From positions 1 to 34,650 of the forward strand of contig JAUMWL010000010.1 in the NCBI GenBank assembly GCA_030529665.1: 34,650 nucleotides of DNA, written 5' to 3'. This stretch comes from Coriobacteriales bacterium (GTDB lineage: Bacteria > Actinomycetota > Coriobacteriia > Coriobacteriales > Atopobiaceae). Below, piece after piece: positions 8,256-24,498 of this stretch (the stretch's first letter is position 1; each line of letters begins with the position of its first letter). The notes below the pieces were generated by a model. The model did not search any database and had not been told where the DNA came from. It saw nothing but the letters and a program-made list of their open reading frames with translations. A program made the position numbers and the translations under genes.

Positions 8256-8481
8256 AGGACCATCCCTCCATCGTGTTATTCCACGATTTAGAGAAGCAAA
8301 GTTGTTTCAAATGATAAATTGCCACCCTAACATGAGCTTTTACGCCATTCTTGCATCAACGAATTCACAGGTCTCGTGCCAGCCAGCTCGCCGTTCGCCG
8401 ATTCGCCGCCTCGGGCGTGAGAGCTGCTCAGGTCGTCGGTACTCTTTTGGACCCGTTTTGGGAATCGGCTGGACTGCGCAT

Positions 8482-8507
8482 AAAAACAGCCGCTCTACCA
8501 GCGGCTG
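8482..8507 (-). terminator. Intrinsic terminator of the TPP riboswitch-like leader
   Basis: On the minus strand an 8-bp stem (8507-8500 with 8494-8487, loop of five) is followed directly by five T (8486-8482). It sits at the end of the riboswitch-like element. Its 5' arm is the same sequence that could pair with the 5' end of the element to make P1. Confidence 0.8.
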
Positions 8508-8600
8508 AAATACATAGTCGGGTAATGCTCATTACCCAGATCAGGTTCTCGGGTCAGGGCCGCGCTGGACCACCTCTCAGCCGGCGTGCTGCCTCCGCTG
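8499..8600 (-). promoter_or_regulatory. TPP (THI-box) riboswitch-like element
   Basis: On the minus strand the conserved THI-box parts appear in order: GGAGGC near 8596-8591, GGCTGAGAGG at 8583-8574, and GAACCTGATCTGGGTAAT at about 8549-8531. A 6-bp P1 can form between CAGCGG (8600-8595) and CCGCTG (8504-8499). The usual GCGnAGGGA that closes the thiamine pyrophosphate pocket is not recognisable. Instead GGGTAAT pairs with ATTACCC directly after it, so the 3' half is diverged. The known role of the class is to sense TPP and control thiamine synthesis or transport genes. No such gene follows: downstream lie 225 bases without a gene and then the broken ATPase. Confidence 0.65.
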
Positions 8601-8822
8601 TTTGGCATGTTGGGAGCTCTACTCGCTCAGCCCGTGACCGACATCGTGACCACGCCCATAGCCCTGCCCATCGGAGTTGGGGCCATGCAGGAGCTGCGAG
8701 CAGCGGAGGCGCTGTCAGGCGCCCGCTCATACGCCACGCCAGCCATCATGTCACGTGCCGATGGGAGCCAGCACGCCGCCCTTTTTGACTGTTTTATGGC
8801 ACCAGCATGCTATACTCCTTGA
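8586..8822 (+). pseudogene. Possible C-terminal remnant of a MATE-type efflux protein
   Basis: The frame reads VLPPLFGMLGALLAQPVTDIVTTPIALPI and later MQELRAAEA. This resembles the last transmembrane helix of MATE transporters (LPxLFGxxGVxLAQPVxDxLT followed by a short ELR tail). Nothing of the preceding about 400 residues is present. Its 5' end overlaps the DNA that on the other strand forms the start of the TPP element, so either a deletion joined the two or one resemblance is accidental. It is not a functional gene. Confidence 0.3.
8808..8816 (+). promoter_or_regulatory. Extended -10 promoter of the NRPS-like cluster
   Basis: TGCTATACT (8808-8816) matches an extended -10 element (TGn plus TATACT). 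A TTGACT at 8785-8790 lies 20 bases upstream, which is too far for a standard -35 but tolerable for an extended -10. It is placed 36 bases before the first cluster ATG and its GAGGGGGG ribosome binding site, giving a short leader. Confidence 0.45.
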
Positions 8823-8851
8823 CGATAATCTACGAGGGGGGTAGCACCGCC

Positions 8852-11038
8852 ATGACAAAGGATTGCTCTGGAAGCCAATACGACACTATGATGCGGATCA
8901 TGGGCGCGATGATATATGAGAACGGACTCCGCATCAGTCACATGAAGTCTCTTGTGAAACAGGGGAATTCAACCAGTTTTCCCGTTCCCTCTATGCCAAC
9001 GACGGCGGCGCCCCAACAGCAAACTGCCCTTCCCGTTTCTCCGCCGACACGCATGATGCCCAAGCGTCATCCCACGCAACAGGCGCAACAGGCGCAAAAG
9101 GCGGCATCACGGCCGAAGTCCGGAGAAAAGCCTCGTACTTCCATATCCAAAGAGTTGGAGGCCTTGCTCGATTCCTCGCGTTATACGGCCTCTTCCATCT
9201 CGGGGGACGACCTGCACCACATCATTGGTCTCTACGGCAGTTCGGTGGAGGACATCTTCGAGCCTGGCGCCGGTCAGATGTGGATGCTCGAGGAAGCCGA
9301 GCATGTAAGCTCCGCCTTCTTCCTGCAGATCCTTACCAAGGCCGTTATCGATTTCGACCTGCCAGCCTTCCGCCAGCAAGCAGACACGGTGTGTCGACGC
9401 CACGAGAACCTGCGCTCGGCCTTCGTGTGCCACGGTGTCGAGCATCCTTGGCGAGTCGTGCTTAGGGACCGCCACCCCGAGATCAACTGCTTCGACCTCT
9501 CGGACCTGTCCATGGGTGAGTTCGACGAGCGAATTCAGAAGCTCATGGAGGCGGACCGCCAACGAGGCTTCGACTTGGAGAGGGACCCGCTCCTGCGCAT
9601 AAACATCTACAAGAGCTGCGAGAAGGACACCTATGCCATCATTATCTCGCAGCCTCACGTCAACTCAGACGGTACGAGCCTAGGCCTCCTCTTCAACGAC
9701 CTATTCATCGGCTATGTGCTCGACATGAATGGCATTGACAAGCAGATCGAGACGCAAAGCTACCAGGAGTACGCGCAGCATCTGAGCAATGTGGATACGA
9801 AGGGCGAGCTGGGGTTTTGGAAGACCTACCTTGCCGATACGGTGGCAGACCAGCTCCTGCCCGGCCAGCAGCCCTCGGAGCTCGACTACGACATTGCCGC
9901 CCTCCCCGTACCCTTTGGCGAGGAGGCCCAGCAAGCGCTGAAGGATGCGCAGCGTACCTATCGTGTCACGCAGTTCACCCTGCTGCAGGGCTTGTGGGGC
10001 ATCATGTGCGCACGGCTCAAGGGGCGCCACCAAATTGTGTTTGGCGCCATCACGTCGGGACGTGACGCACAGGTGGGGGACAGCATGCGGCTTGCGGGTG
10101 GGTTCGTGAACGCCCTCCCCGTTAAGGTTGCCTTTGCCGAGGGCGACTCGCTGGCCGACTTCTTGCGCCGGCTGCAGGGTGAGTTCGCGCGCTGCATGGC
10201 AAACTCGCACTGCTCTCCCGGCCAGATTCGCAAGGCCTTGGGGCGCGAGGAGCCGGTTTTTTCCCACATCCTCAACAACCACAACTTCGCCAGACCCAAG
10301 TCCAGTGGCGGCTTTTCCCAAGGCGGGTTTACGGGCATCAAGATGCTCGGGGGCGACGTGTACGACAACCTCTCGGCCGACCTATGCGTCTACTTTACCG
10401 ACGTGGAGGGAGGACCTGGTTGCCGCTACGTGTATAACGGCCGTGCCTTCTCAAGCGAGGTGATTCAGCTCCTGTCGCACTACTTTGCGGACATGCTGGC
10501 CGCGCTGCCCAATCTCGGCGACGATGCGACCATCGCCGCACTCCCCTCCTTCGACGCGTCGGGGATTCTCTCGGCCGAGAGCGCCCGCCATATCGAACAG
10601 GTCAGGATCGCCGAGGCCCTCAAGGCCCATCCCGTGTTCCAGGGAGCGGACGACGAGGAGCTCCTCGCGCTTGCCGAACGCAGCCGCCTCGCACACTATC
10701 CGGCAGATGCCATCATCGTGGCGCGCGACGAGCTTCCCAAGGAGATGCCGATACTCTTGAACGGGCGCGTGTACCACTACACGCAGGCCAGAGATGGATG
10801 GGAGAATCCGCTGCGTCTGCTCAAGGAAGGCGACATCCTCAGCTACTCCGTGCTCTTCGAGGGGCAGCGCACGAGCGACCTGATCGTCAACAACAGAAAC
10901 GAGGCGACGGTGATCTGGCTGCCGAAGACCGAGCTGCTCGACTTCCTGGCAGCTCATCCCGCGGGCATGATCGAGATAGCGCGGCGTCTCCACTCGGACA
11001 AGCGAGTCTACGCCAGGCTCTGGACCAACGCGGAGTAG
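8852..11038 (+). CDS. NRPS condensation domain fused to a cyclic-nucleotide-binding-like domain
   Basis: 728 residues. Residues 8-37 form a Met-rich helix (SQYDTMMRIM...) that resembles a helix in the double carrier protein at 19760. Residues 40-110 are a Pro/Gln/Lys linker. Residues about 115-575 are a condensation domain: VEDIFEPGAGQMWML (C1), HENLRSAF (C2) and PHVNSDG (C3) with the catalytic His269 and the structural Asp273. The first His of HHxxxDG is Pro, which is common outside canonical elongation domains. Later parts include FGAITSGRD, GGFVNALPVKV and FSHILNNHN. Residues about 585-728 match the cNMP-binding fold of Crp (HPVFQGADDEELLALAERS, ILLNGRVYHY, EGDIL), but the phosphate-binding cassette lacks the usual GE and RxA residues, so it may not bind a nucleotide. 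The start is set by GAGGGGGG 12 bases before ATG 8852. The gene is first in the cluster, and the next gene starts four bases after its stop. Confidence 0.88.
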   Translation: MTKDCSGSQYDTMMRIMGAMIYENGLRISHMKSLVKQGNSTSFPVPSMPTTAAPQQQTALPVSPPTRMMPKRHPTQQAQQAQKAASRPKSGEKPRTSISKELEALLDSSRYTASSISGDDLHHIIGLYGSSVEDIFEPGAGQMWMLEEAEHVSSAFFLQILTKAVIDFDLPAFRQQADTVCRRHENLRSAFVCHGVEHPWRVVLRDRHPEINCFDLSDLSMGEFDERIQKLMEADRQRGFDLERDPLLRINIYKSCEKDTYAIIISQPHVNSDGTSLGLLFNDLFIGYVLDMNGIDKQIETQSYQEYAQHLSNVDTKGELGFWKTYLADTVADQLLPGQQPSELDYDIAALPVPFGEEAQQALKDAQRTYRVTQFTLLQGLWGIMCARLKGRHQIVFGAITSGRDAQVGDSMRLAGGFVNALPVKVAFAEGDSLADFLRRLQGEFARCMANSHCSPGQIRKALGREEPVFSHILNNHNFARPKSSGGFSQGGFTGIKMLGGDVYDNLSADLCVYFTDVEGGPGCRYVYNGRAFSSEVIQLLSHYFADMLAALPNLGDDATIAALPSFDASGILSAESARHIEQVRIAEALKAHPVFQGADDEELLALAERSRLAHYPADAIIVARDELPKEMPILLNGRVYHYTQARDGWENPLRLLKEGDILSYSVLFEGQRTSDLIVNNRNEATVIWLPKTELLDFLAAHPAGMIEIARRLHSDKRVYARLWTNAE

Positions 11039-11042
11039 GGCC

Positions 11043-13016
11043 ATGGATACGCTGCACATAGTCTATGCGGCCGACCATGCGTACTTCCTGTACTGCGCCA
11101 TATCGATGTACTCGCTGATGGACCATCTGCCACAGGGGCAGCGCGTGCATGTCCATCTGCTTTGCGACGAGAGCTTCTGCGCACAGGACCAACGCATGCT
11201 CGACCTTCTAACAGCACGCTTCCCCAACCTACGCGTCTTTTGCCGATGGGTGGCCGAGGAGGCCTTTGACGAGCGTGACTTCACCGATTCCCTGTGGTCA
11301 AAGGCGACGTGCTATCGACTGGTGCTGCCCGAGCTGCTCCACGACGTGGAAAGTTGCCTCTATATCGATGCCGACACGCTCGTGGTGGGCGACCTCCTCC
11401 CGCTCTGGGAGACGGATATGGAGGGCTTCTATCTTGCGGGGGTCCTCGACGACATCGCGCCGGTGCGCGCGCAGACGGTGGGTGACCATGTCCCCGGCAT
11501 CCAAACCTATGTGAATGCTGGCGTGCTCTTCATGAACCTCGCGCTCATGCGCGCGGACGGCGTGCAGGATCGTTTGCTCGCACGTGTCGCGGACTACTTG
11601 GTGGTTGACCAGGACCTCCTCAACGTCGAGTGCTATGGGCATATCCGCCTGCTTCCGCCGGGCTACAACTGCATCCCGGGCGTGCGGGTCGACGATCCCA
11701 AGATCTTGCACTTCCTGATGCGCGACTACCTACGTCCTTGGAAGAACCGCCGCGCTCGGGGTGCCGAGCAGTGGTGGAGCTACGCGAAGGAGTTCGCGGG
11801 CCTCTGCGATTTGGAGGGGCTGCGAGCTCAGGCAAATTGGTACGAGCGGGGATCCGCCTCGTACCTGTATCGGCGCTGTGCGGACTATGCACAGGTGCAT
11901 GTGGTTGGTAGCGGCCCGGAAGCCATGAGGGTCCATCGCGCCTTGCGTTTGGGCAGGTGCAAGGGCTTACATGGGCCGCTGCCCGAGGACAAACGAATCG
12001 ACTACGCGCCCGATGCCCTGGTTATCTACGCTTCGAACAGACGCAACGTTAGGGCACTCGAGGCCTTTCTCGAGCACGAGGATGGCACACGCCAAGTGCT
12101 TCGCTACGAACGCTGGCCCGTTTCGTACTACAACCTCCTGCCCAACGAGGTGAGCCACGAGGTCGAGGGGGAGCTCCTCATGTGGGAGTACGGCGTGGAC
12201 AGCCGAAGCGTGACTGTGCCTTCGGCCCTGCTGGAAATATGCGCAGTTCGCCATCCCGACAAGGAGGCCTTGGTCGAGTGGGTGGATGGCGCCCGTGCGT
12301 CGTGCACCTTCCAAGAGCTCAATGTGTGCGCGAATCGCATGGCCAACTGGCTGCGCGGGCGTGGCATTGCTCGTGGCACACTGGTGCGGCTGCCAGAAGG
12401 TGCCCGTCCGACCCAGATCCTCGCTGCGGCAATTGGCATCCTCAAGGCAGGCTGCGTCGTGGCGCAGGCGGGCGATGCCCCCGTGACGGCAGACCCGTTG
12501 GTGCTCGCGGATGATCGCAACTCCTCCAAATCGCCCGCTTGCGAGCCCGTTCCCTACGAGGCCGCACTGCGTGAAGACGGTAGGACCTGGACGGGACGCG
12601 ACCTATGCAAGGAGGCGGAGCGGTTGCGCAGGCGCTGTGGCTGGCATGGGGGCGACAAGCCGCTTGTGGATGTGTCGGTTGTTTGGGGCGGACTGGTCCA
12701 ACTGCTGGCAGCGTGCGCACGGGGATGTACCACCGTGCTTGTGGCCGGGAACGATCCACGCATGCTCCTCGATGTAGTCGACCGCGAGCAGGCCAGCATC
12801 ATGTGCATGGGCAAGAGGCTATTCTTGCAGACTGTGGATCAGCTTGAGAGCGAACCTTCGCAGCGGCTTGCTACCTGCAGGTTTGCGATCGTGGGCGACG
12901 AGGTGGATGCCGACGACCCGGCACGCCTGCGATGGCAGCAGCTAGTTGCGCATATCCCGCTCGACGGACAGGGCTTTGCTGGGGAATTCTTCTATGACAG
13001 TCGGTGGTACACATGA
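11043..13016 (+). CDS. GT8 glycosyltransferase fused to a degenerate adenylation domain
   Basis: 657 residues. Residues 1 to about 260 are a GT8-family, retaining, GT-A fold glycosyltransferase: HIVYAADHAYFLYCAISMYSL at the start, the metal-binding DAD at 109-111 in LYIDADTLVVGDL, YVNAGVLFMNL and VDQDLLNV. Residues about 285-370 look like a small Rossmann-type segment (VHVVGSGPEAMRVHRAL). From about 390 an adenylation-like domain follows: HPDKEALVEW, TFQELNVCANRMANWLRGRGI (A1), AAAIGILKAGCVV (A2), a VDVSVVWGGLVQLLAACARGCTTVLV stretch equivalent to A4, and FAIVGDE. It lacks the A3 TSGSTG loop, the A5 YGxTE, the A7 TGD and the A10 lysine, and stops before the C-terminal subdomain, so it cannot be an active adenylating enzyme. 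It may be a structural partner. The gene follows the first gene by four bases and overlaps the region before the GT2 gene. Confidence 0.87.
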   Translation: MDTLHIVYAADHAYFLYCAISMYSLMDHLPQGQRVHVHLLCDESFCAQDQRMLDLLTARFPNLRVFCRWVAEEAFDERDFTDSLWSKATCYRLVLPELLHDVESCLYIDADTLVVGDLLPLWETDMEGFYLAGVLDDIAPVRAQTVGDHVPGIQTYVNAGVLFMNLALMRADGVQDRLLARVADYLVVDQDLLNVECYGHIRLLPPGYNCIPGVRVDDPKILHFLMRDYLRPWKNRRARGAEQWWSYAKEFAGLCDLEGLRAQANWYERGSASYLYRRCADYAQVHVVGSGPEAMRVHRALRLGRCKGLHGPLPEDKRIDYAPDALVIYASNRRNVRALEAFLEHEDGTRQVLRYERWPVSYYNLLPNEVSHEVEGELLMWEYGVDSRSVTVPSALLEICAVRHPDKEALVEWVDGARASCTFQELNVCANRMANWLRGRGIARGTLVRLPEGARPTQILAAAIGILKAGCVVAQAGDAPVTADPLVLADDRNSSKSPACEPVPYEAALREDGRTWTGRDLCKEAERLRRRCGWHGGDKPLVDVSVVWGGLVQLLAACARGCTTVLVAGNDPRMLLDVVDREQASIMCMGKRLFLQTVDQLESEPSQRLATCRFAIVGDEVDADDPARLRWQQLVAHIPLDGQGFAGEFFYDSRWYT

Positions 13017-13033
13017 TGAGAGGGGATGCGCGC

Positions 13034-13942
13034 ATGGAGACAGTACAAAAACCGCTCGTCACGGTGTTCGTGCCCGTGCATAATGGAGAGACCTACGTCG
13101 AGGGGTGTTTGCACGCCATCCAGGCGCAGACGTGGCAGAGACTCGAGATTATCGTGGTGGACGACGGTTCGACCGATGCCACTGTCGAGGCGGCAAATCG
13201 TTGTGCCCGACAAGACTCGAGGATCAGCGTGCTGCGCCTTCCCGAGAACGTACAGCTCTTTCATGCGCGTCTTGCCGGTATGGAGGCTGCGCATGGTGAC
13301 TATCTCCTCTCGGTAGATGTGGACGACCAGATCTCCGACGACTATGTGGAGTGCCTGCTCGACGCGGCGCTGCGGACAGACGCCGACCTCGTTATCTGCG
13401 ACCACCTGCTCATGCGCACCCCCGACGGCAGCGTTCGGAAGAGCGCCCTGAACAGCACCCCCGCAGACCGGGAGTACCTCGTGCCCAAAGAGCACGTCGA
13501 TTACGAGTACTATCGCCACAACGTCGGCAACGCCCCCATAGATCAGAGCTACGTCGTGTTCTGGTCCAAGCTGTATCGCCGGGACCTCGTCGAGCGAGCT
13601 TTGCCCTGGCTTCGCGAGGAGTGCATGCCGATCATCTACAACGAGGACGTGCTCTACGCGGGGGTGTTCCTGCATCTTGCGAGCAGTACGGCATTCACGC
13701 GCCAGGGCGCCTACGTATACGGAACCAACGACGCGTCGGCGATGCGATCGGACTTTATGGAGCGTCTGTCCAAGATAGCGGCCGACCAGCTGGAGGTGCT
13801 CTACTTCCTCCAACGCTTTCTCATGCGATCGGGTGCGGACCCCAAGCTGATGGACCTCTTCCAGGCGTGGAAGGCGGGCAATTGGGGATTCCTGGAGACG
13901 CGTTATGCCTACTGGCGTATGCAGGCGACGCGTAACTCATAA
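13034..13942 (+). CDS. GT2 family glycosyltransferase
   Basis: 302 residues. This is an inverting GT-A glycosyltransferase with the classical N-terminal layout: VTVFVPVHNGETYVEGCL, EIIVVDDGSTDAT (nucleotide-binding Asp), and SVDVDDQISDDY in place of the DxDD metal site. A region around IIYNEDVLY contains the ED that usually positions the acceptor/base. It would transfer a sugar from a nucleotide-sugar in the cytoplasm; donor and acceptor cannot be read from sequence. No membrane helices are visible, so it is cytosolic or peripheral. I prefer ATG 13034, which has GAGAGGGG eight bases upstream; ATG 13013 overlaps the previous stop as ATGA and cannot be excluded. Its place between two NRPS-like genes suggests it decorates the cluster product. 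Confidence 0.9.
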   Translation: METVQKPLVTVFVPVHNGETYVEGCLHAIQAQTWQRLEIIVVDDGSTDATVEAANRCARQDSRISVLRLPENVQLFHARLAGMEAAHGDYLLSVDVDDQISDDYVECLLDAALRTDADLVICDHLLMRTPDGSVRKSALNSTPADREYLVPKEHVDYEYYRHNVGNAPIDQSYVVFWSKLYRRDLVERALPWLREECMPIIYNEDVLYAGVFLHLASSTAFTRQGAYVYGTNDASAMRSDFMERLSKIAADQLEVLYFLQRFLMRSGADPKLMDLFQAWKAGNWGFLETRYAYWRMQATRNS

Positions 13943-13970
13943 GGTTCTTAAACAGGCGAGGAGGCACGCA

Positions 13971-16900
13971 ATGATCGATCTCGATGGGCATGTGAGGGTA
14001 GTGCAGCGTTGCGTGGCGGGTCCCGTCTACTGCGACGCAGACCACCAGGCGATGACCGTCTATCTGGCGGTGCAGCTGCCAACGCGCGTTAACGTGCCGG
14101 CACTCGACAGGGCGCTGGCTGACCTGCAAGAGCGCTATGGATGCATCCGGCAGCTAGTGGTGGAGGTGGGAGGTGCCTACTACTATGCCCAGACGGACGA
14201 GCCACTGCACGTGGAGGTGGCAGACGATGTAGACGATGCCGCAGCAGGCCATGGCCAAGCGTGGGCGGAGCGACTGAGTGAGCCTGCCGCCAGCTCAGAT
14301 GCGGGGCTGCCCGGCGCCATGCGAGGCCTTCGCGTGCTCGCAGGCAAAAGAACCGTCGTCGTTGCCATGAACCATGCGCTCATGGATGGTGGCGCGCTCC
14401 TTACGCTCACCACGGAGCTGCTCGAGGGCTACGCGGGGTACCGCGCTGGCACAGGACGGGCCGCGTCGCCTGACGTGCCACCTACGCTTTCCGAGACGAC
14501 ATTCGAGGCGCTCGAGCTGCCGGTTGGCTCGGACTGGATACCCGTGGCGGGATATGCGCACGACGCGTTTGTGCCGCCTGCCGACATGGGTAGGCTTGAC
14601 GAGCTCGTAGAGCTGACGGCACCCACGGCCTCCGTGCTCTCCCTGTGCAAGCGGTTGGGCAGCTCGCCAGCAGCGTTTTTTACGGCCATGATAGCCCACG
14701 CAATCCGCGAGAGCCATCCGCGCGATCCGCAGCGCCATCTGGTTGCCAGCATAGCCATCGACTACCGCACGCTGCTCGGGTGCGAAAACACGATACGAAA
14801 CGCCAGCTGGACGGCGGCCTTCGACCTAGACGACTCCGCGTGCAACGGGATGGGCTGGCAGGAGCAGGCCAAATGGCTGAGGTCAGCGATCGGCACGCGA
14901 CGTGACGTCCGTTACGCCAAGGGATGGATTAAGACCGAGCGGGCAATCAACGTGATGTCGTCGCGGTTGCAAAAGAAGCGTCTCCACGACACGAGGGAGA
15001 CGTCTGCCCAGCAATCCTTCATGCTCACCTATCTGCGACTTCCTGATTCGTCGGCATTCGATGGGGCAAAGGTCTGCTTTTCCGGGTTCTCCCTTCCCTC
15101 CGATATGACGCTCGTGGAGCATGCCGGCAGCTTCCACCTGTTCTTCATCCCCCTTCAGAGGCAGGACGCCTTCCTTGCCGCCTTGGACGAGGCCGCCGCC
15201 GAGGTCGGCCTCGCGTTTGCGAGCGATAGTCTGCGCAAACCCTCCATCCACTCTGAGGTATCGGCACTGCAGGCTGGCGGGCCATGCGTGTTCTTTGCAT
15301 GCGATCCCACATCCCAGGATGTGGAGGCACTTGCCGCCGAGATGCGCTCGTACGTCGAACGCGGATATCGTGTGCGCGCCTACACGAGCTCCCGCCTCGC
15401 GTCTCTCGTCGAGGAAGCCGGCGCCGCTTGCATCTCCTGCGACCCCATATTCTCAGACTCGGATGCCAGTGGCGCCACGTGGGCAGATGAGCTGGAGGAC
15501 ATGCTGCGCCAGGACGTGCGGGTGTTCGAACCTGAGTGTATGGTGGCATCCCAAAGCTGTGCATGGGCCGCCCCCCTGGCAGACAAGCTTGGCCTGCGCC
15601 TCGAGAACCACCCCAGAGCACGCCTCTGGTCGGAGCTCTGGGATACCGACTCCTACGACGAATCGCTCACCTTGCAGGACCTCGCCTGGGCAACCTTCGA
15701 CGCACCTGGCACGGCCATCGTGTGCGGAGGGCGCCGTATGTCGTATGCGGACTTTCACCGCACCACCACGCGCATAGCATGTGCGCTCATCGAGCGCGGC
15801 CTCAAGGCCACAGATGTGGTCGCCATCCACATGAGGCGCGACGAGCGACTTCTTTGTGCCATGTTCGGCATCATCAAGGCGGGTGCCGCCTATCTTGTGC
15901 TAAACACGGACTGGCCCCAGCAGCGCCTGCGCTATGTGGTCGAAAACTCCGACGCACGCTACGTTATAGCCAATGAGGTGCCACAAGACTCCCGAGTGTC
16001 GGCCGAGACGATCTCTTACCAATGGCTGGTGGAAAAGCCCGTCCCCGGCGAGGCGGGGCCACAGGGAGTCCTGCGCGCGCGAATGCTGCGCCCCCATTCC
16101 TCGGACGTGGCAGCGCTGTATTACACCTCTGGCTCCACGGGCAAGCCCAAGGGAGTCGTGCTAAGCCATCGCAATATGGTGGATTCCACACTGCCCTTGC
16201 GTCGTAACGCTTGTATCCGCGAGGGTTCCATTCGCTGTCGGAGCATTCTGGACGTGGTCAACGCAGGCTTCATGGCGTCGGTTCTTACCTATGGGCCGTC
16301 CCTCTATACGGGAGGGACGCACGTGTTCGTGCAGAGCGAGGAACTCGAGCAAATCGCCCCGGTGGCACAGATCATGAAGCAGGAAGAGGTGGACTTCGTC
16401 CTCATGACGCCTTCGGTCATGACAACCCTTCTTACAGACGAGGGCTTCTCGCAAAGCCTTTCGCAGGTGCGCGAGATCACCCTCTGCGGCGAGTCCTTCT
16501 CCCAACAATTGGCCGACACGCTCACGGACCTAACCAGGGAGGGCACGATTATCAACAACCTCTACGGCACGACGGAGGCTGCCGTGGGGCTGGCCTGCGT
16601 GGACGTCCGTGGCAGAGAGGTGACGATGGGCGTGCCCTTCGCACATACGGAGGTGTTTGCCGAGAACGAGCTGGGCGAGCGCCTTCCACATGGCCAGGTT
16701 GGGCAGCTGTGTGTAAAGGGCCCACGCGTGGCCTTGGGGTATCACAAGCTGCCCGAGCTGTCGGCGGAGAAGTTCTTTGTGGACGCTGACGGCATCCGTG
16801 TGTACCGAACGGGCGACAACGGCTTTGTAAACCAGCGTGGGGAAATAGAGTTCCTCGGTCGCGACGACCGAATGGTCAAGCTGGGTGGGGTGCGATTCGA

Positions 16901-18665
16901 GCTGCCGGAGGTGGAGTACCACCTGTTGCAGCTGCCCTACATCCGCGAGGCAGCCGTCAAGGTGTGCGAGGTGGACGGTCGCGACCAGCTCTGCGCGGTT
17001 TATGTGGGCGACGAGAGCGATACCGTGCGCGCCGGCCGACGGATTCGCGCAGACCTTGCCAGCGTCGTTCCCCAAGCCATGATACCGAGCGTCTATGTGC
17101 ACCTGCGAGCGATGCCCGTTACGGAGCGGGGCAAGATTGACTACAGTTGCTTGCCCATACCAACAAGCGTGCAAGTTCAAGACAACACGTTGCCCGCGAA
17201 CGAGACCGAGCAGACGATCTGCGAGGCCTTCGCGGAGGTCTTTGGCGTGGCATCCGTAGGGGCGGAGGCGTCTTTCTTCGAGCTGGGGGGCAACTCGCTC
17301 AGGGGTATAACCCTACTGGCGGCGCTTCTTAAGCGCGGGCAGTCCGTGAGCATGAAGGAGCTGCTGGACCACCCGACGCCACGAACGTTGGCGAGTCTGT
17401 TACATGCGCGGCAGAAAACAACCGAAGAGGATGCCCAGGCGACCGATGCTGCGCAGGAGGCTATCGAGCTGCCCGACGAGCTGCGCGAGCTCATGGCATC
17501 CGAGGCGGTCGAGGCCATACTTCCGGCCAGCAACGTCACGTCGGCATACTTGTTTATGGGACAGGCCGGTGTCACCGATCGCGCAAACCGCATTCGCGTA
17601 CGCCTCACGCTCGAGGGAGCCCTCGAAGAAGCGGCGTTCAGACGTCGCGTAGATGCGCTGGTGCGCAATCACCCTTCGCTGCGAAGTGACTTCGTGCGCG
17701 ATAACCAGGGGAGGTATTGGCAAGTCGTGCGCTCGTACCAAGACGTGCCCACCTACCACAAGGACCTCCGTAGGCTCTCCGATGCGGCGCATGCGCGGCT
17801 GCTGAGTGGTTTTTGGCAAGTCATGGACGAGAGCGGCCAGCCTTTTGAGGCGGCATGCTTCCCTGTATCGGCAGGTCGCAGCGTTGTTCTCTTTGAGGTC
17901 GAACACACGCATGCCGACGGCATGTCGCTCCTTATCATGGCAAACGAGCTGGCAAACGGCGCATCTCCAAACCTTCCCGTGGATGACTTCATAGACTACC
18001 GCAGGCGTCACGTCCAGGCAGGCCAGCATATCCCTCTGTCCGTTCAACAATACCTGACTCCCAAACGTGCTCCGCTCAAGTCGCCTGAGGCGATGCTCGG
18101 GCAGGAAGTCTCGCGCACGGAAGAGGTCGTCGAACTCTCGCGGTTCCAGACGGACGAGCTCGTGCGGCGTTGCGGACGCGAAGGGGTCACGCCCTTTGTC
18201 CTCGTCCAGCTCAGTTATGGCCGGGCACTCCTGAGCCTCTTGAACGAGGACGAGGTCTGGGTGCTGCACACGGATGGGGGGCGCTCGTCCTCGCGCGAGG
18301 GGGAAAGCCGCATTGTGGGCAACCTGTTTTGCGGCGTGCCCCTCCTCATTCGTGCTACCACCACTGCGGCGCAGCTACAGGAAGACATTCTCAACATCGC
18401 AGCCCAGGCGGGAATCTCGGACTCCGACCTGCTGCGCAATCCCACCTGGATGGGCATCTACGAGGGGGTTGTTTCTGAGGACTTTGGCGAGCGCGAAGGC
18501 GGCCTCCTGTCTTTCGAGATACTTCACGACGCCAATCGCGGGGGCAACCAGATGACCATGGCCGACGGTCGGCTGCGTATCACTTTGTGCCATGCGGACG
18601 ACCCCAAGCGCAACCCGTGGTTCCGGCGGCTGGCGGAGCTCCTGCGTGCAGAGCTGCTCGGGTAA
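13971..18665 (+). CDS. NRPS-like protein: C-like / GT1-like / A / PCP / C
   Basis: 1564 residues. Domain order: residues 1-425 condensation/acyltransferase-like (NHALMDGG, His135 and Asp139); 440-555 a Rossmann segment like the N-terminal half of MGT/GT1 glycosyltransferases (VFFACDPTSQD, YVERGYRVRAYTSSRLASLVEEAGA) without the sugar-nucleotide half. Residues about 560-1065 are an adenylation domain with intact motifs: SYADFHRTTTRIACAL (A1), IKAGAAYLV (A2), YTSGSTGKPKG (A3, Tyr718), LYGTTEA (A5, Tyr865), YRTGD (A7, 945-949), GRDDRMVKLGGVRFELPEVE (A8) and GKIDY with catalytic Lys1055 (A10). A carrier domain follows with FELGGNSL, phosphopantetheine on Ser1109. Residues about 1165-1564 form a terminal C domain, EHTHADG with His1312. 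There is no thioesterase, so the last C domain probably transfers the carrier-bound acyl group to an amine, hydroxyl or sugar. The start ATG 13971 follows GAGGAGG. A 4'-phosphopantetheinyl transferase is needed from elsewhere. Confidence 0.93.
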   Translation: MIDLDGHVRVVQRCVAGPVYCDADHQAMTVYLAVQLPTRVNVPALDRALADLQERYGCIRQLVVEVGGAYYYAQTDEPLHVEVADDVDDAAAGHGQAWAERLSEPAASSDAGLPGAMRGLRVLAGKRTVVVAMNHALMDGGALLTLTTELLEGYAGYRAGTGRAASPDVPPTLSETTFEALELPVGSDWIPVAGYAHDAFVPPADMGRLDELVELTAPTASVLSLCKRLGSSPAAFFTAMIAHAIRESHPRDPQRHLVASIAIDYRTLLGCENTIRNASWTAAFDLDDSACNGMGWQEQAKWLRSAIGTRRDVRYAKGWIKTERAINVMSSRLQKKRLHDTRETSAQQSFMLTYLRLPDSSAFDGAKVCFSGFSLPSDMTLVEHAGSFHLFFIPLQRQDAFLAALDEAAAEVGLAFASDSLRKPSIHSEVSALQAGGPCVFFACDPTSQDVEALAAEMRSYVERGYRVRAYTSSRLASLVEEAGAACISCDPIFSDSDASGATWADELEDMLRQDVRVFEPECMVASQSCAWAAPLADKLGLRLENHPRARLWSELWDTDSYDESLTLQDLAWATFDAPGTAIVCGGRRMSYADFHRTTTRIACALIERGLKATDVVAIHMRRDERLLCAMFGIIKAGAAYLVLNTDWPQQRLRYVVENSDARYVIANEVPQDSRVSAETISYQWLVEKPVPGEAGPQGVLRARMLRPHSSDVAALYYTSGSTGKPKGVVLSHRNMVDSTLPLRRNACIREGSIRCRSILDVVNAGFMASVLTYGPSLYTGGTHVFVQSEELEQIAPVAQIMKQEEVDFVLMTPSVMTTLLTDEGFSQSLSQVREITLCGESFSQQLADTLTDLTREGTIINNLYGTTEAAVGLACVDVRGREVTMGVPFAHTEVFAENELGERLPHGQVGQLCVKGPRVALGYHKLPELSAEKFFVDADGIRVYRTGDNGFVNQRGEIEFLGRDDRMVKLGGVRFELPEVEYHLLQLPYIREAAVKVCEVDGRDQLCAVYVGDESDTVRAGRRIRADLASVVPQAMIPSVYVHLRAMPVTERGKIDYSCLPIPTSVQVQDNTLPANETEQTICEAFAEVFGVASVGAEASFFELGGNSLRGITLLAALLKRGQSVSMKELLDHPTPRTLASLLHARQKTTEEDAQATDAAQEAIELPDELRELMASEAVEAILPASNVTSAYLFMGQAGVTDRANRIRVRLTLEGALEEAAFRRRVDALVRNHPSLRSDFVRDNQGRYWQVVRSYQDVPTYHKDLRRLSDAAHARLLSGFWQVMDESGQPFEAACFPVSAGRSVVLFEVEHTHADGMSLLIMANELANGASPNLPVDDFIDYRRRHVQAGQHIPLSVQQYLTPKRAPLKSPEAMLGQEVSRTEEVVELSRFQTDELVRRCGREGVTPFVLVQLSYGRALLSLLNEDEVWVLHTDGGRSSSREGESRIVGNLFCGVPLLIRATTTAAQLQEDILNIAAQAGISDSDLLRNPTWMGIYEGVVSEDFGEREGGLLSFEILHDANRGGNQMTMADGRLRITLCHADDPKRNPWFRRLAELLRAELLG

Positions 18666-18748: not shown

Positions 18749-19621
18749 GTGGGTTTTGGGTATCGTCAAATCTCGACGGAAGGCCTCAAGCCCCTCGGGA
18801 GGGGTAAGAGCGGGACGGTGTACTGGGTAGACGACGACAAGGTCGTCAAGATATACCACGATGGGCGTAGCGAGCTCGAGGTGTTGAGGGAGTATCTAAC
18901 AGCTCGACTCATGGAAGAGGCAAACGTTCGTGCCATGCGGATCTTTGAGGTCGTAAAAAGCGGCGACGCCTTTGGTTTGGTGTGCGAGAGACTGGAGGGA
19001 GTCTCCTTCAGGCAGCTCCTCTTCAGCGAAACGGCACGGATTGACAAGATCGCAGCGCTCTATGCCCACTTTATGCGGGAGGGGCACCTTGCGGTCCTCG
19101 GCCAGGACGAAGGCGTGTCTGTGCGGCCCACATTCGAGAGATGGACAAACAGCATCCGTGTCTTTTCCCGCGAGGACCGTGACGCCCTGCAGAGGTCGCT
19201 CTCCCACATACCAAACAGGCTGTGTCTGCTCCATATGGACCCGACCCCCGAGAATCTGCTGCTTCTTGCCGATGGAAGCCTCGCATGGATTGACTTGGAG
19301 TCGTGTGGAACAGGACATCCGGCCTTCTCGCTACAGGCACTCTACTTTCCCGACGACGTGGATACGATACCCGGCGTCTCGCTGGACGAGGCGCGTGTGC
19401 TCAGACGTTTTTGGCACTCTTTTGCGAGGAACTATTTCGTGGGTTTCGACCAGTCTCGCATGGGATCCATCATAAGGGGCATCAAAGTGCTCGCAGTCCT
19501 TCGCTCCCTTGGTTTCTTACAGGACAAGGTGGGTGACACGCCCCTCTTCCGTGCGCAAGCGTCGGCGCTCACGAAGGGGCTTTTCTGCGACATAGCGCAA
19601 GGTCTCGACTATGACTGGTGA
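18749..19621 (+). CDS. APH/choline-kinase-like small-molecule kinase
   Basis: 290 residues with GTG start 18749 behind AGGGAGGT. The fold is that of the aminoglycoside phosphotransferase / protein-kinase-like superfamily: glycine-rich loop GRGKSGTVY, the ATP-anchoring lysine in KVVKIYHDG, the Brenner catalytic loop HMDPTPENLL (His162, Asp164, Asn169) and the metal aspartate in WIDLES (Asp182). It therefore should phosphorylate a hydroxyl on a small molecule or sugar. It resembles the group of APH-like proteins with unknown substrates, not a recognised resistance enzyme. The gene lies 83 bases after the large NRPS-like gene and before the carrier gene. Possible jobs are tailoring of the product, making an activated sugar for the two glycosyltransferases, or protecting the producer by phosphorylating the product; nothing in sequence decides between them. 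Confidence 0.85.
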   Translation: MGFGYRQISTEGLKPLGRGKSGTVYWVDDDKVVKIYHDGRSELEVLREYLTARLMEEANVRAMRIFEVVKSGDAFGLVCERLEGVSFRQLLFSETARIDKIAALYAHFMREGHLAVLGQDEGVSVRPTFERWTNSIRVFSREDRDALQRSLSHIPNRLCLLHMDPTPENLLLLADGSLAWIDLESCGTGHPAFSLQALYFPDDVDTIPGVSLDEARVLRRFWHSFARNYFVGFDQSRMGSIIRGIKVLAVLRSLGFLQDKVGDTPLFRAQASALTKGLFCDIAQGLDYDW

Positions 19622-19759: not shown

Positions 19760-20797
19760 ATGGCAAAGTACACCGAGGAGTTGCGTCAGGCATGGAAAGA
19801 AGTCTTCGAAGTGGAGGAGGTCGCCGACGACGCCGACTTCTTTGCAGAGGGCGGTGACTCCATCATGGCGGTGCAGCTGTCGTCATGGCTGCAGCAGAAG
19901 GGTATTAAGCTGGATTTAGGCAAGATCTTCTACACGCCCGTATTCTCCGACATGGCGGAGACGCTTGAGGAGACGGAGCCCATGTACGTGCCCGACGAGC
20001 TGATGACCAAGGAGCTCATCAACGAGAAGCTGAGCGATATCATGCAGAGCGACAGAGGGGCTCAGAGCGCATCGGAGGCCAAGGCGCCGGCGACCGTCTT
20101 GCCCGGGCAGGCGCCCAGCCAGGCAGACGCCCAGGTCTGCGACCCGAAGGATATGCCCGCCGGGAAAGGCCAGGCGGGCGCCCAGGTCTGCGACCCCGCG
20201 CCTATGCCTGCTCGCAACTCTGACTACGATGTGATGATCTCCATGTTCCAGACGATGCTTGCCCAGCAGCAGGTCATGCTTCAAATGATGCAGGTCATGC
20301 TCGCCCAGCGGAGCCAGGCCCCTCAGTTTGTGGCGCCCATGCAGGGAGGTGGTATGCCCTTTCGGGCTCCCTTTCGTTCCCAGGCACCTGTAGCGGCCCC
20401 TCGATACCCCGCCCAGGTGGCACCTTCGACCGGCGGACCGCATACCCTGGACAGTGTTCCACCCGAGGCACGTGCCCAACTCGCGCAACAAATGCAAAGG
20501 TACCAGTCGCATCCGGTGGACAAACCCATCGACAAGCCCAACGTCATCGGTTTGAAGCCCGCCAAAGTCACCAAGGCCGAGCACAGCGCCGAGGAGGTCC
20601 TAGACCATGTGCTCTCTGGTCTCCTCGAGGGTAGCTACAGCCGCACGGAGGATCTCTTTGAGCAGGGACTTACTTCATTTGACGTTGTCAAGATGATTAC
20701 CCGTTGCGGTGAGCACGGCTATGCCCTGAGCATGCAGGACGTGTACATGCACTCGACCTTCAATGAGCTGCTCGAGCATATGAAGCCCGGCAAGTAG
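19760..20797 (+). CDS. Stand-alone double carrier protein (PCP-linker-PCP)
   Basis: 345 residues. The N-terminal carrier domain (1-75) has DADFFAEGGDSIMAVQL with the phosphopantetheine Ser34. The C-terminal carrier domain (about 270-345) has EDLFEQGLTSFDVVKMI with Ser306 in a looser motif. The 190-residue link contains a 17-residue tandem repeat (QAxAQVCDPxxMPA, each with a Cys), a Met/Gln-rich helix at 154-186 (SDYDVMISMFQTML...) and a Pro/Ala/Gln-rich tail. The helix resembles residues 8-37 of the first cluster protein, so it may dock the two. The link could let the carriers swing between the three C domains and the A domain. Having neither an A nor a C domain of its own, both carriers must be loaded in trans. 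The start ATG follows GGGAGGAA. A terminator follows 40 bases after the stop, closing the cluster. Confidence 0.9.
   Translation: MAKYTEELRQAWKEVFEVEEVADDADFFAEGGDSIMAVQLSSWLQQKGIKLDLGKIFYTPVFSDMAETLEETEPMYVPDELMTKELINEKLSDIMQSDRGAQSASEAKAPATVLPGQAPSQADAQVCDPKDMPAGKGQAGAQVCDPAPMPARNSDYDVMISMFQTMLAQQQVMLQMMQVMLAQRSQAPQFVAPMQGGGMPFRAPFRSQAPVAAPRYPAQVAPSTGGPHTLDSVPPEARAQLAQQMQRYQSHPVDKPIDKPNVIGLKPAKVTKAEHSAEEVLDHVLSGLLEGSYSRTEDLFEQGLTSFDVVKMITRCGEHGYALSMQDVYMHSTFNELLEHMKPGK
20120..20221 (+). repeat. Two tandem 51-base (17-residue) repeats in the carrier linker
   Basis: Two in-frame units start at 20120 and 20171. They share 17 identical bases (20129-20145 and 20180-20196), coding AQVCDP, and similar flanks ending in MPA. 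Each unit supplies one cysteine. It is a recent-looking coding duplication within the flexible link. Confidence 0.85.
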
Positions 20798-20917: not shown

Positions 20918-22735
20918 CTATGCGTCCATGCTGAACTGACTGTTGTAGAGCTCGGCGTAGAGGCCAGCGCACTCCATGAGCTCGTCGTGGGTGCCGGTTT
21001 CCCGAATGTCGCCGTCCTGCATGTAAATGATGAGGTCGGCATTCTTGATCGTAGAGAGGCGATGCGCGATGACAAAGCTCGTCCGTCCGCGGGTCACCTC
21101 GTCCATGGCCCGCTGGATCTGCTCCTCGGTGCGGGTGTCCACCGAGGAAGTGGCTTCGTCCAGGATGAGCATCGGCGAATCGGCCACCATCGCGCGGGCG
21201 ATGGTGAGGAGCTGCTTCTGTCCGGCGGAGATGCTTACGCTGTCGTTGAGCTGCGTATCGAGGCCCCTGGGCAGCGTGTCAACGAAGTGCGCCAACCCGC
21301 AGCGCGCACAGACGTCGAGGAGGTCGTCGTCGGAAACGCTTTCTTTGCCGTAGGTCAGATTTTCACGCACGGTACCCTCAAAAAGCCATGTGTCCTGAAG
21401 TACCATCCCAAAGACCTCATGCGCGTCCTTTCGTGTGACGTCGGCGAGATTCGTCCCGTCTATGGCAATCGTACCACCATCCAGCTCGTAAAAACGCATG
21501 AGCAGGTTGACCAGTGTGGTCTTGCCGGCACCGGTAGGTCCCACGATGGCAACCTTCTGCCCAGCCTCAACACGCGCGGAGAAGTCGTGGATGATGGTCC
21601 TCTCTGGCACGTAGCCAAACCGTATATGGTCAAAGGACACTGCACCACGTACGTCGGACAGGCGCGTGGTTTTGTTGCTTTCGTCTTCAAGCTCCTCCTC
21701 CGCCAGGAAAGCCTTGACTCGCGCACTTGCGGCGGCAGCGGCCTGGATGCTCGCGAAGCCCTGCCCAATGGAGCTGAGCGGGATAGAGAACAGGCGCACG
21801 TATATGATGAAGGCAACGACAACCGAGAAGTCGATGGACCCGCCAAAGGCAAGGGCTGCGCCGACGATGCACACGGCCACATAGCCAAGGTTGCCGACAA
21901 AGGTCATGATGGGCATCAGCAGCCTCGAGAGGAACTCCGCTTGGAAGGTGCGTTGCCGAAGGCGCTCGTTGGCGTCCCGAAACGCTCGAAGCTCGCTCTC
22001 CTCTGCGTTGTAGGCGCGCACGATCATCTGCCCTGCGTACAGCTCATCTATATGTCCGTTCAACTCTGCAAGGCTCTTCTGTCGTGCCACAAAGTACTTC
22101 TGAGACACACCCATGATTCGGCCCATCGCAATGAAGCCCACCAGCGTCGTGGCGATGGCGGTAAGGGACATGCGCCACTCCGTTATCGTCATCATCACGA
22201 TGCAGCCAATGACGATGGTGGATGATGACACGAAGACGCCCACGCTCGTGTTGAGCGACTGGCTGATGGTGTCCACGTCGTTAGTCACATGCGAGAGCGT
22301 GTCGCCCTGGCTGTGGTTGTCGAAGTACCTAAGAGGCATGCGGTTGATCTTGCGCGTGATCTCGCTGCGCATCTGCTTGCCCACGCTGCAGGACACATGC
22401 GACATGATGAGCGACTGCAGGTAGTCGAGCGCCATGCTTGCCACATAGACGGCGATGAGCGTCATGCCAATGCCGTTGACCTTGGCGAGGCTGATGTCTA
22501 TGCCTGTTGATGAGACGCCCTTCGTGATGGTTTCGGCCAAACGCGCAATCAAGGACGGTCCCGCGACGGAGAGCAACGCGCTGACTGCAGAAAACGCGAA
22601 GGCCACAACGATGAGGCCCACATACTGATGGCAGTAACCCACGAGATAGGAAAGTGATGCGCCGAGGTCCTGCTTGTTGCGAGTGCTGCCCCGACGGGCT
22701 TTCGAAACCATCTGCTTGCGTGTCTTCGGACTCAT
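20918..22735 (-). CDS. ABC exporter half-transporter (second subunit)
   Basis: 605 residues: an N-terminal six-helix exporter membrane domain followed by a nucleotide-binding domain, the type that pumps lipids, peptides or drugs outward. Walker A is GPTGAGKTT (Lys405), Walker B with LILDEATSSVD keeps the catalytic Glu, and the switch His is in IAHRLSTI. The signature reads SISAGQKQ, slightly off the LSGGQ consensus. It overlaps the upstream half-transporter by four bases (ATGA), so the two are translated together and should form a heterodimer. The paired degeneracies (Asp in the partner's Walker B, ISAGQ here) give one consensus and one weakened ATP site, a known design of heterodimeric exporters. 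It converges on the NRPS-like cluster, making that product a possible cargo. Confidence 0.93.
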   Translation of the reverse strand: MSPKTRKQMVSKARRGSTRNKQDLGASLSYLVGYCHQYVGLIVVAFAFSAVSALLSVAGPSLIARLAETITKGVSSTGIDISLAKVNGIGMTLIAVYVASMALDYLQSLIMSHVSCSVGKQMRSEITRKINRMPLRYFDNHSQGDTLSHVTNDVDTISQSLNTSVGVFVSSSTIVIGCIVMMTITEWRMSLTAIATTLVGFIAMGRIMGVSQKYFVARQKSLAELNGHIDELYAGQMIVRAYNAEESELRAFRDANERLRQRTFQAEFLSRLLMPIMTFVGNLGYVAVCIVGAALAFGGSIDFSVVVAFIIYVRLFSIPLSSIGQGFASIQAAAAASARVKAFLAEEELEDESNKTTRLSDVRGAVSFDHIRFGYVPERTIIHDFSARVEAGQKVAIVGPTGAGKTTLVNLLMRFYELDGGTIAIDGTNLADVTRKDAHEVFGMVLQDTWLFEGTVRENLTYGKESVSDDDLLDVCARCGLAHFVDTLPRGLDTQLNDSVSISAGQKQLLTIARAMVADSPMLILDEATSSVDTRTEEQIQRAMDEVTRGRTSFVIAHRLSTIKNADLIIYMQDGDIRETGTHDELMECAGLYAELYNSQFSMDA

Positions 22736-24498
22736 CGTAGCTCCTCCTCGCTTAGCTGGCTATAGGCGAGCTCTTGGTAGGCCTCACAGCTCGCCATGAG
22801 CTCCTCGTGCGTTCCCTGTCCCGCGACGCGACCATCCTCGAGCACCACGATGAGGTCGGCGTTCATGATGGTGCCGATGCGGTGCGCTACGATGAGGCAG
22901 GTCGCATCCGCCATTTCGTCCTTGAGTGCCTGCCTGAGCGCGCGGTCGGTCTTGTAGTCAAGCGCGGAGAAGCTGTCGTCAAAGATGTATATTTCGGGAT
23001 GGCGGGCCACGGCGCGGGCGATGGAGAGACGCTGCCGCTGTCCACCAGAAAGGTTGGTGCCCATCTGAGCCACCGCCGCCTCGATGCCCTTCTCCTGAGC
23101 ATCCACGAAGTCGCTGCCCTGGGCAATTGCGATAGCGCGTTTCACGGTGGCGTCGTCCGATTCGTTGTCGCCAAAATCGACGTTCGAGCGGATGTCACCG
23201 CTAAAGAGCACGGAACGTTGCGAGACATAGCCAATTCGTTTGGCCAGCTCGCTCTTGCGGTACTCCCGCACGTCATGTCCGTCCACCAGCACCCGTCCTG
23301 CCGTCACGTCATAGAAGCGCGGCACGAGGTTGACTACCGTCGTTTTGCCGCTGCCGGTGGCTCCGATAAAGGCCACGGTGTCGCCCTTCCTGGCGGCAAA
23401 GGACACGTCCGATATGGCGTTGCCCCTGCCATCCGGATAGCTAAAGCAAACATGGTCGAAGACCACCGTGCCCACCTCATCGGTCTTGCCGACACCTGGC
23501 CCATCCTCGACGCTCACCTGCGCATCGAGCACCTCGTTGATGCGTTGCGCACTGACGAGCGATCGAGGGACGTTCATGAAGAGCGCGGAGAGCAGGATGA
23601 ACGCCGTGATAATCTGCAGGCCGTAGGACATGAACACCACCATGTTGCCAAAGAGACTCGCGTATTCCTCCAGCGACGCGGTGTTGATGACGTAGGCCCC
23701 GGTCCAGTAGATGGCGAGCGACATGCCGTTCATCACGAGTGACATGAAAGGGTTGATGAAGGCCGTTGCACGGTTGGTAAAGAGGCTCGTGCCGGTGAAC
23801 TCCTCGTTGACCTCTTCGAACTTGCCTTGCTGGAAGTCCTCGGCGTTGTAGGCGCGTATAACCCGGATGCCGCTCAGGTTCTCGCGCACCAGTTGGTTGA
23901 GGTGGTCGGTATGTGACTGCAGCAGCTTGAACTTGGGCGTCACAAGTCGAACGATGCTTATGACGACGGTGACGAGGGCCACCACCGCGATGCCCATGGC
24001 TATGGTCCATTCCTGCCTGCTGGCCGAAATCTTGGCAATCGCCCATACGGCCGTGATGGGCGCTTTGATCATCATCTGCAGACCCACGGTCATGAGGTTT
24101 TGGATCTGCTGCACGTCGTTGGTCGAGCGTGTGATGAGCGAGGCGGTGCTAAACCTGTTGATCTCTCCCAGCGAGAAGCCCTGTACCTTGGTATAGACGG
24201 CTTCGCGAATACGCGTGGAGAAGTCGACCCCGATGTGTACGATAAAGTAGCTGGATATGATGGAGCATATGAGGCTCCCAATGGCGCACAGGAGCATGAA
24301 CCCGCCATCGACCCAGATGTCGGACAGGCCACCGGCAGCCCCTGCGTGTGCCGTCGACCTGCCTTGCGCAATCTGTGTGACGGAATTCATGTATTCGGGC
24401 ATCTTGAGATCGAGCCACACCTGAGCGACGATGAACGTAACTGCGCATGCGACATAGAGCCATTCGCGCTTTCTTAGGTACTTGAGCAATCTTAGCAA
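22732..24498 (-). CDS. ABC exporter half-transporter (first subunit)
   Basis: 588 residues with an N-terminal transmembrane exporter domain (six hydrophobic segments) and a C-terminal ATPase domain. Walker A is GATGSGKTT (Lys385), the signature is LSGGQRQRLSIARA, Walker B is YIFDDSFSALD, where the catalytic glutamate is replaced by Asp-Ser, and the switch is VAHRIGTI. The IFDDSFSALD version is typical of the degenerate site in heterodimeric multidrug/peptide exporters. Translation starts at TTG 24498 behind GGAGGGAG. It lies 41 bases downstream of a 46-residue small ORF on the same strand and shares its likely promoter. The operon is clearly minus-strand and convergent with the biosynthetic genes. 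Generic multidrug export is the alternative reading. Confidence 0.93.
   Translation of the reverse strand: MLRLLKYLRKREWLYVACAVTFIVAQVWLDLKMPEYMNSVTQIAQGRSTAHAGAAGGLSDIWVDGGFMLLCAIGSLICSIISSYFIVHIGVDFSTRIREAVYTKVQGFSLGEINRFSTASLITRSTNDVQQIQNLMTVGLQMMIKAPITAVWAIAKISASRQEWTIAMGIAVVALVTVVISIVRLVTPKFKLLQSHTDHLNQLVRENLSGIRVIRAYNAEDFQQGKFEEVNEEFTGTSLFTNRATAFINPFMSLVMNGMSLAIYWTGAYVINTASLEEYASLFGNMVVFMSYGLQIITAFILLSALFMNVPRSLVSAQRINEVLDAQVSVEDGPGVGKTDEVGTVVFDHVCFSYPDGRGNAISDVSFAARKGDTVAFIGATGSGKTTVVNLVPRFYDVTAGRVLVDGHDVREYRKSELAKRIGYVSQRSVLFSGDIRSNVDFGDNESDDATVKRAIAIAQGSDFVDAQEKGIEAAVAQMGTNLSGGQRQRLSIARAVARHPEIYIFDDSFSALDYKTDRALRQALKDEMADATCLIVAHRIGTIMNADLIVVLEDGRVAGQGTHEELMASCEAYQELAYSQLSEEELR

Follow-up and report, generated by a model that had tools for sequence, protein, structure and literature searches.

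A condensation domain joined to a CRP-like fold in two genomes of an Atopobiaceae genus

What is a fold of the CRP type doing at the end of an NRPS condensation enzyme? The question is raised by the window, by which we mean the whole stretch of DNA analyzed here (34,650 nucleotides of contig JAUMWL010000010.1, from a Coriobacteriales bacterium). A single gene in it encodes a condensation (C) domain followed by what its sequence indicates to be a CRP-type beta-roll and C-helix without the DNA-binding part, placed where an adenylation (A) domain normally follows. NRPS control is usually thought to run via transcription and substrate supply. With a conserved sensor-type fold on the bond-forming enzyme, direct control of an assembly line would become open to test in a single protein of tractable size. 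The tail would also be a further case of a CRP-like domain that lacks a cAMP site, like the domains of family 2B encapsulins, and would bear on the question of what role such domains play. The fusion is genuine and conserved, it is rare as far as the searches reached, and it combines two known parts. We read the protein as a trans-acting, stand-alone condensation enzyme with a dimerizing, non-canonical regulatory or anchoring tail, and give this reading a probability of about one half.

The fusion gene and its two domains

The preliminary description of this locus, made from the sequence alone, had proposed a C domain fused to a Crp-like fold and had named a PF00027 search as the way to check it. 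Both halves of the proposal are borne out by profile matches (Table 1). The cNMP_binding family PF00027 is found at residues 630-716 with 29.7 bits (E 6.5e-7) when the whole protein is searched, with 33.2 bits when the tail is searched as an isolated piece and with 34.2 bits in a genome search, against a cut-off of 27.5. Residue numbers given here refer to the 743-aa form of the protein. The probable start of the gene is the ATG at 8852, which would yield 728 aa; this start is favored because similarity to the copy in a second genome (RUG440, hereafter G009) begins there, and it also fits the residues 575-728 to which the tail had been assigned in the preliminary description.

Table 1. Features of the fusion gene and of the surrounding cluster, with positions in the window (residues in the 743-aa form)
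Feature	Position	Strand	Basis and remarks
Condensation-domain / CRP-like fusion gene	8807..11038	+	743 aa from ORF; Pfam, comparison with G009
N-terminal predicted helix, residues 24-52	8876..8962	+	Followed by Pro/Gln-rich linker; weak likeness to helix in middle of T-x-T protein
Condensation domain, residues 157-567	9275..10507	+	PF00668 186.5 bits, curated cut-off 30.6
Active-site motif P-H-V-N-S-D-G, residues 283-289	9653..9673	+	Read from translation, PDB alignment
Linker between C domain and tail, residues 571-599	10517..10603	+	Codon comparison with G009
CRP-like / cNMP-binding fold, residues 600-743, no HTH	10604..11035	+	PF00027 above cut-off; dN/dS 0.126
Phosphate-binding-cassette region GDILSYSVLFEGQRTSD, residues 675-691	10829..10879	+	Profile and alignment comparison
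C-terminal helix region, residues 718-743	10958..11035	+	Protein ends at would-be hinge
GT8 glycosyltransferase + partial adenylation domain	11043..13016	+	PF01501 103.2 bits; PF00501 50.4 bits in two pieces
GT2 glycosyltransferase	13004..13942	+	PF00535 113.4 bits
C-A-T-C synthetase	13905..18665	+	Pfam; N-terminal C weak, 21 bits
APH-fold kinase-like protein	18749..19621	+	PF01636 52 bits; adjoins C-A-T-C in G009 too
T-x-T protein: two carrier (T) domains, long linker between	19760..20797	+	PF00550 in two stretches
ABC exporter subunit 1	20918..22735	-	PF00664/PF00005; adjoins fusion gene in G009
ABC exporter subunit 2	22732..24498	-	PF00664/PF00005; adjoins fusion gene in G009

The nearest PDB relatives of the C domain are the C domains of the bacitracin, surfactin and tyrocidine synthetases, which share both sequence and active-site motif with it. 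Those domains are parts of larger modules, whereas the protein described here is a C domain alone with a CRP-like tail. Measured against the C-domain motif HHxxxDG, in which the second histidine is catalytic, the second His, the Asp and the Gly are kept and the first His is replaced by Pro. The top-ranking PDB C domains (the second domain of 9rde and those of the surfactin and tyrocidine synthetases) are of the D-residue-donor type, a classification to which no weight is given here, as no epimerase was noted in the cluster. In the PDB alignments the C domain is complete by about residue 572, so the tail (residues 600-743) is not its C-terminal lobe, an alternative that the preliminary description had itself put forward.

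The best PDB sequence match of the tail is 3r6s, labelled 'transcription regulator' (E 1.8e-5), which, like 4byy, we take to be GlxR. CRP/FNR regulators such as GlxR have the fold (by profile match), an Arg-Thr-Ser that HMMER places in the cassette and, presumably, the C-helix in common with the tail, but they also have a DNA-binding domain and a cassette Gly-Glu, both of which are missing from the enzyme-fused tail. Pfam gives no HTH match in the fusion protein, and the chain stops at residue 743. The last stretch, residues 718-743, presumably corresponds to CRP helix C, the dimerization helix that leads to the DNA-binding domain. AF2 models were of low quality, with a mean pLDDT of 49.7 for the tail domain and 32.2 for the whole protein, too low for a fold to be read from either.

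At the other end of the protein, the N-terminal helix weakly resembles the central helix of the T-x-T protein, a likeness that is suggestive only. The local alignment score for the window pair is 37, reached by 8 of 1000 shuffles. Comparison of the window helix with the T-x-T protein of G009 gave 5/1000, and the G009 pair gave 219/1000; as one of the three shuffle comparisons failed, the likeness is not taken as proof. No RNA family was found within 8300-8900, and a scan for promoters and terminators gave no excess over shuffles.

Conservation in a second genome and rarity elsewhere

The same fusion occurs in one other genome of the genus, RUG440 (uncultured actinobacterium), at about 87-88% identity. 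Both genomes resemble metagenome assemblies, with hundreds of contigs and 88% completeness, and G009 holds elsewhere, on its contig C106, a chimeric-looking join between a cNMP gene and an NRPS, so that the fusion itself might be suspected of being an artefact of metagenome assembly. The suspicion is scarcely credible given that the same junction is present in both genomes. The linker across it (residues 571-599) shows no amino-acid and 5 synonymous changes in 29 codons, synonymous differences lie on both sides, and third-position GC makes no step between C domain and tail. That the tail is a decaying, functionless remnant of a gene fusion would agree with its non-canonical cassette and with the other broken-looking part of the cluster, the partial A domain behind the GT8 domain. 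Such decay is very improbable, however, as dN/dS between the two genomes is as low for the tail (0.126) as for the catalytic C domain (0.145) and neither copy of the gene contains a frameshift or stop. The CRP-like tail is under purifying selection as strong as that on the C domain. Taken together, the conserved junction and linker and the low dN/dS of the tail argue that the fusion is neither chimera nor debris.

Conservation is not even along the tail. Over the 82 codons of residues 662-743, which hold the cassette and the C-helix, a single amino acid differs between the genomes, versus 10 in the 62 codons of residues 600-661 (hypergeometric P 0.001, with the split picked after viewing the data), and synonymous counts are alike in the two halves (11 and 8, respectively). 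The cassette region has no amino-acid change and only 1 synonymous change in 17 codons; the C-helix region has none and 3 in 26 codons.

To judge how rare the fusion is, a tail profile was built from the window and G009 sequences and run against three sets of genomes. Among 395 genomes of the order it gave matches in 13, with long frames for the window (749 aa) and G009 (751 aa) only; the remaining 12 matches have frames between 103 and 330 aa long. In 396 drawn genomes of the phylum at least 86 had matches, and in 394 drawn genomes of the family of genome G513, which from genome content is taken to be Streptomycetaceae, at least 98 did; in these two draws the first pass scored the best candidates of each genome, up to 9. 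By hand count of the matches listed for the G513 family, 94 of 108 lie in open frames of 471-756 aa. From the long-frame matches of the phylum and G513-family draws a subset of 28 proteins was scanned (10 + 8 + 10, with L132 and L109 left out; L110 has a short frame), and none of the 28 carries a condensation or adenylation domain. They comprise encapsulins, MscS channels, an ABC exporter, a patatin, M50 proteases, DUF294, DUF5995 and HEAT proteins and long-frame CRPs. In patatin/NTE proteins, MscS channels, ABC exporters, M50 proteases and DUF294 proteins the cNMP fold is attached to a working protein, as it is here. A contig scan with the fusion found RUG440 as the sole other genome, no place in 72,556 plasmids covered 80% of the fusion, and the searches made of an open-licence literature library yielded no relevant paper linking NRPS with cyclic-nucleotide binding. 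The preliminary description had called such a fusion unfamiliar, and the genomes searched hold none beyond that of G009.

One further candidate, the join on G009 contig C106 (77 bits, in a 1591-aa frame), was rejected as an independent NRPS-cNMP fusion and is considered a probable assembly chimera, or possibly a product of recombination. There, at positions 1-500 (L111), a cNMP gene of low GC continues in frame as an NRPS. The first 250 bases have 39% GC versus about 60-65% from base 500 on, and from residue 78 the protein is 97.6% identical to an NRPS of genome G008 in which the upstream part is a carrier domain. Both sides share a T-V-V-A-L-E stretch, and the join falls within it.

The phosphate-binding cassette and candidate ligands

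The cassette glutamate of cNMP-binding domains normally holds the ribose. All alignments read for these positions show Ser679-Tyr680 in the tail in place of the canonical Gly-Glu; of 38 comparison rows, 27 have the Gly and 21 have the Glu. The preliminary description had stated that the cassette lacks the usual GE and RxA. The loss of GE stands, but an arginine motif is present after all, since HMMER, in each of its two alignments, pairs Arg688-Thr689-Ser690 with the Arg-Thr-Ser of 3r6s; a MAFFT alignment places the two one column apart. To go by the residues present, with Gly-Glu replaced by Ser-Tyr, the tail is unlikely to bind cAMP in the standard manner. Our best guess is, as the preliminary description suggested, that it may bind another ligand or serve as a protein-protein module.

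The named profile in NCBIfam that scores best against the tail is that of family 2B encapsulin, with 37.5 bits for the window tail and 32.4 for that of G009, far below that family's whole-protein cut-off of 400 bits; the CRP profile gives 16.8 and 11.5 bits, respectively. Likewise, the 10 best loci of the G513-family search are 8 encapsulins and 2 CRP regulators. In the PDB search, in which 3r6s ranked first, a 470-aa 'nucleotide-binding protein' (9bhu) that we take to be a family 2B-type encapsulin appeared at E 0.34. Like the fusion protein, family 2B encapsulins are non-regulators that carry a PF00027-type domain without an HTH. In them, however, the domain is an insertion in the E-loop of an HK97-fold shell, whereas in the fusion it is C-terminal and its partner is an NRPS C domain; Pfam gives no match to the HK97-type shell domain PF19307 in the fusion protein. 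The encapsulin rows aligned keep Gly-Glu or Gly-Asp where the tail has Ser-Tyr, so the encapsulin domains and the tail are not degenerate in the same way. In a careful tree, computed without four of the alignment rows (L037, L039, L041 and L042), the tail stands alone on a long branch, as it does in a quick tree. Descent of the tail from encapsulin domains was not adopted, a joint clade being neither supported nor rejected (p-AU 0.473), and any analogy of ligand with these domains is correspondingly weak. PMC12407261 describes the family 2B encapsulin domain as having the PF00027 fold with divergent site residues and cites earlier work according to which it binds no cyclic nucleotides, and in PMC8346489 the cNMP-type domain of encapsulins is termed highly variable.

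These observations bear on whether the tail could be a true cyclic-nucleotide sensor that switches the C domain on or off by cAMP or cGMP. The PF00027 match and the Arg-Thr-Ser aligned with that of 3r6s/GlxR would fit, as would the supply of candidate ligands in the genus, where a class III cyclase occurs in 15 of 16 genomes and a DAC-type c-di-AMP cyclase and GGDEF domains in all 16. We nevertheless regard such a switch as quite improbable. The cassette has Ser-Tyr for Gly-Glu, the best profile is that of a domain reported not to bind, and the stand-alone cNMP proteins near the cyclase of the genus keep the standard cassette, GE...RSA.

GGDEF matches number 31-67 in each genome of the genus, which is very high for genomes of 3-4 Mb. 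The genus also has a conserved gene set made up of the class III nucleotide cyclase, two small cNMP proteins that have no HTH and a protein judged by eye to be metallo-beta-lactamase-like, located at 3891-6392 of L112 (G000:C105) and at 3510-6184 of L113 (G009:C172). It looks like a compact cyclic-nucleotide signalling unit.

The gene cluster and the possible role of the tail

Gene order around the fusion differs between the two genomes, as in G009 the fusion gene has both exporter genes as its immediate neighbors and the T-x-T gene lies beyond them. The GT8-partial A protein is conserved there at 91.9% identity. The C-A-T-C counterpart, 92% identical in protein, is located with the kinase-like gene on a second G009 contig, which ends in the GT2 region. 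These shared partners define a gene set comprising the C-cNMP fusion, GT8-partial A, GT2, C-A-T-C, the kinase-like protein, T-x-T and two ABC subunits.

Within this set, the fusion protein would be a condensation enzyme that stands alone in a split NRPS cluster. As it lacks both A and T domains, it would have to act in trans, presumably joining units that C-A-T-C and T-x-T carry on their T domains. The C-helix of the tail may hold the enzyme as a dimer. The tail as a whole would then be a regulatory or anchoring module that has departed from the standard reading of cAMP, although its arginine might still contact an acid or phosphate group. The activity or the place of the enzyme might be set by a partner protein from the cluster or by some small ligand that is not cAMP.

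A rival proposal is that the tail is purely structural and ligand-free, serving for dimerization or docking and so tying the C enzyme to carrier proteins. Separate C and T-x-T proteins need a means of meeting, the C-helix region is identical in protein between the genomes, and the weak likeness of the N-terminal helix to the T-x-T helix would suit such an assembly. That same helix, however, already resembles an assembly element, and the cassette on the pocket side is equally unchanged, beyond the needs of a scaffold, with few synonymous changes there too. On balance a structural tail is a possible but somewhat unlikely explanation. The preferred reading, of a trans-acting enzyme with a non-canonical regulatory or anchoring tail, can also be narrowed to the case in which a CRP-type sensor within the enzyme gates turnover in response to some ligand different from cAMP, such as the product of the pathway, a nucleotide sugar for the neighboring glycosyltransferases or a carrier-bound intermediate. 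Gating of assembly activity, which the preliminary description had raised as a possibility, is doubtful in this form.

Two stretches of the neighboring proteins deserve mention in their own right. Between the C and A domains of the C-A-T-C synthetase, about 150 residues (about 15223-15720) match no Pfam family above cut-off; by eye they resemble a GT-B glycosyltransferase in its N-terminal half. In the T-x-T protein, the linker contains a repeat, some 17 residues long and with Q-V-C-D-P as its core, present in 2 copies in the window (20119-20196) and in more copies than that in G009 (L030, 8803-9963).
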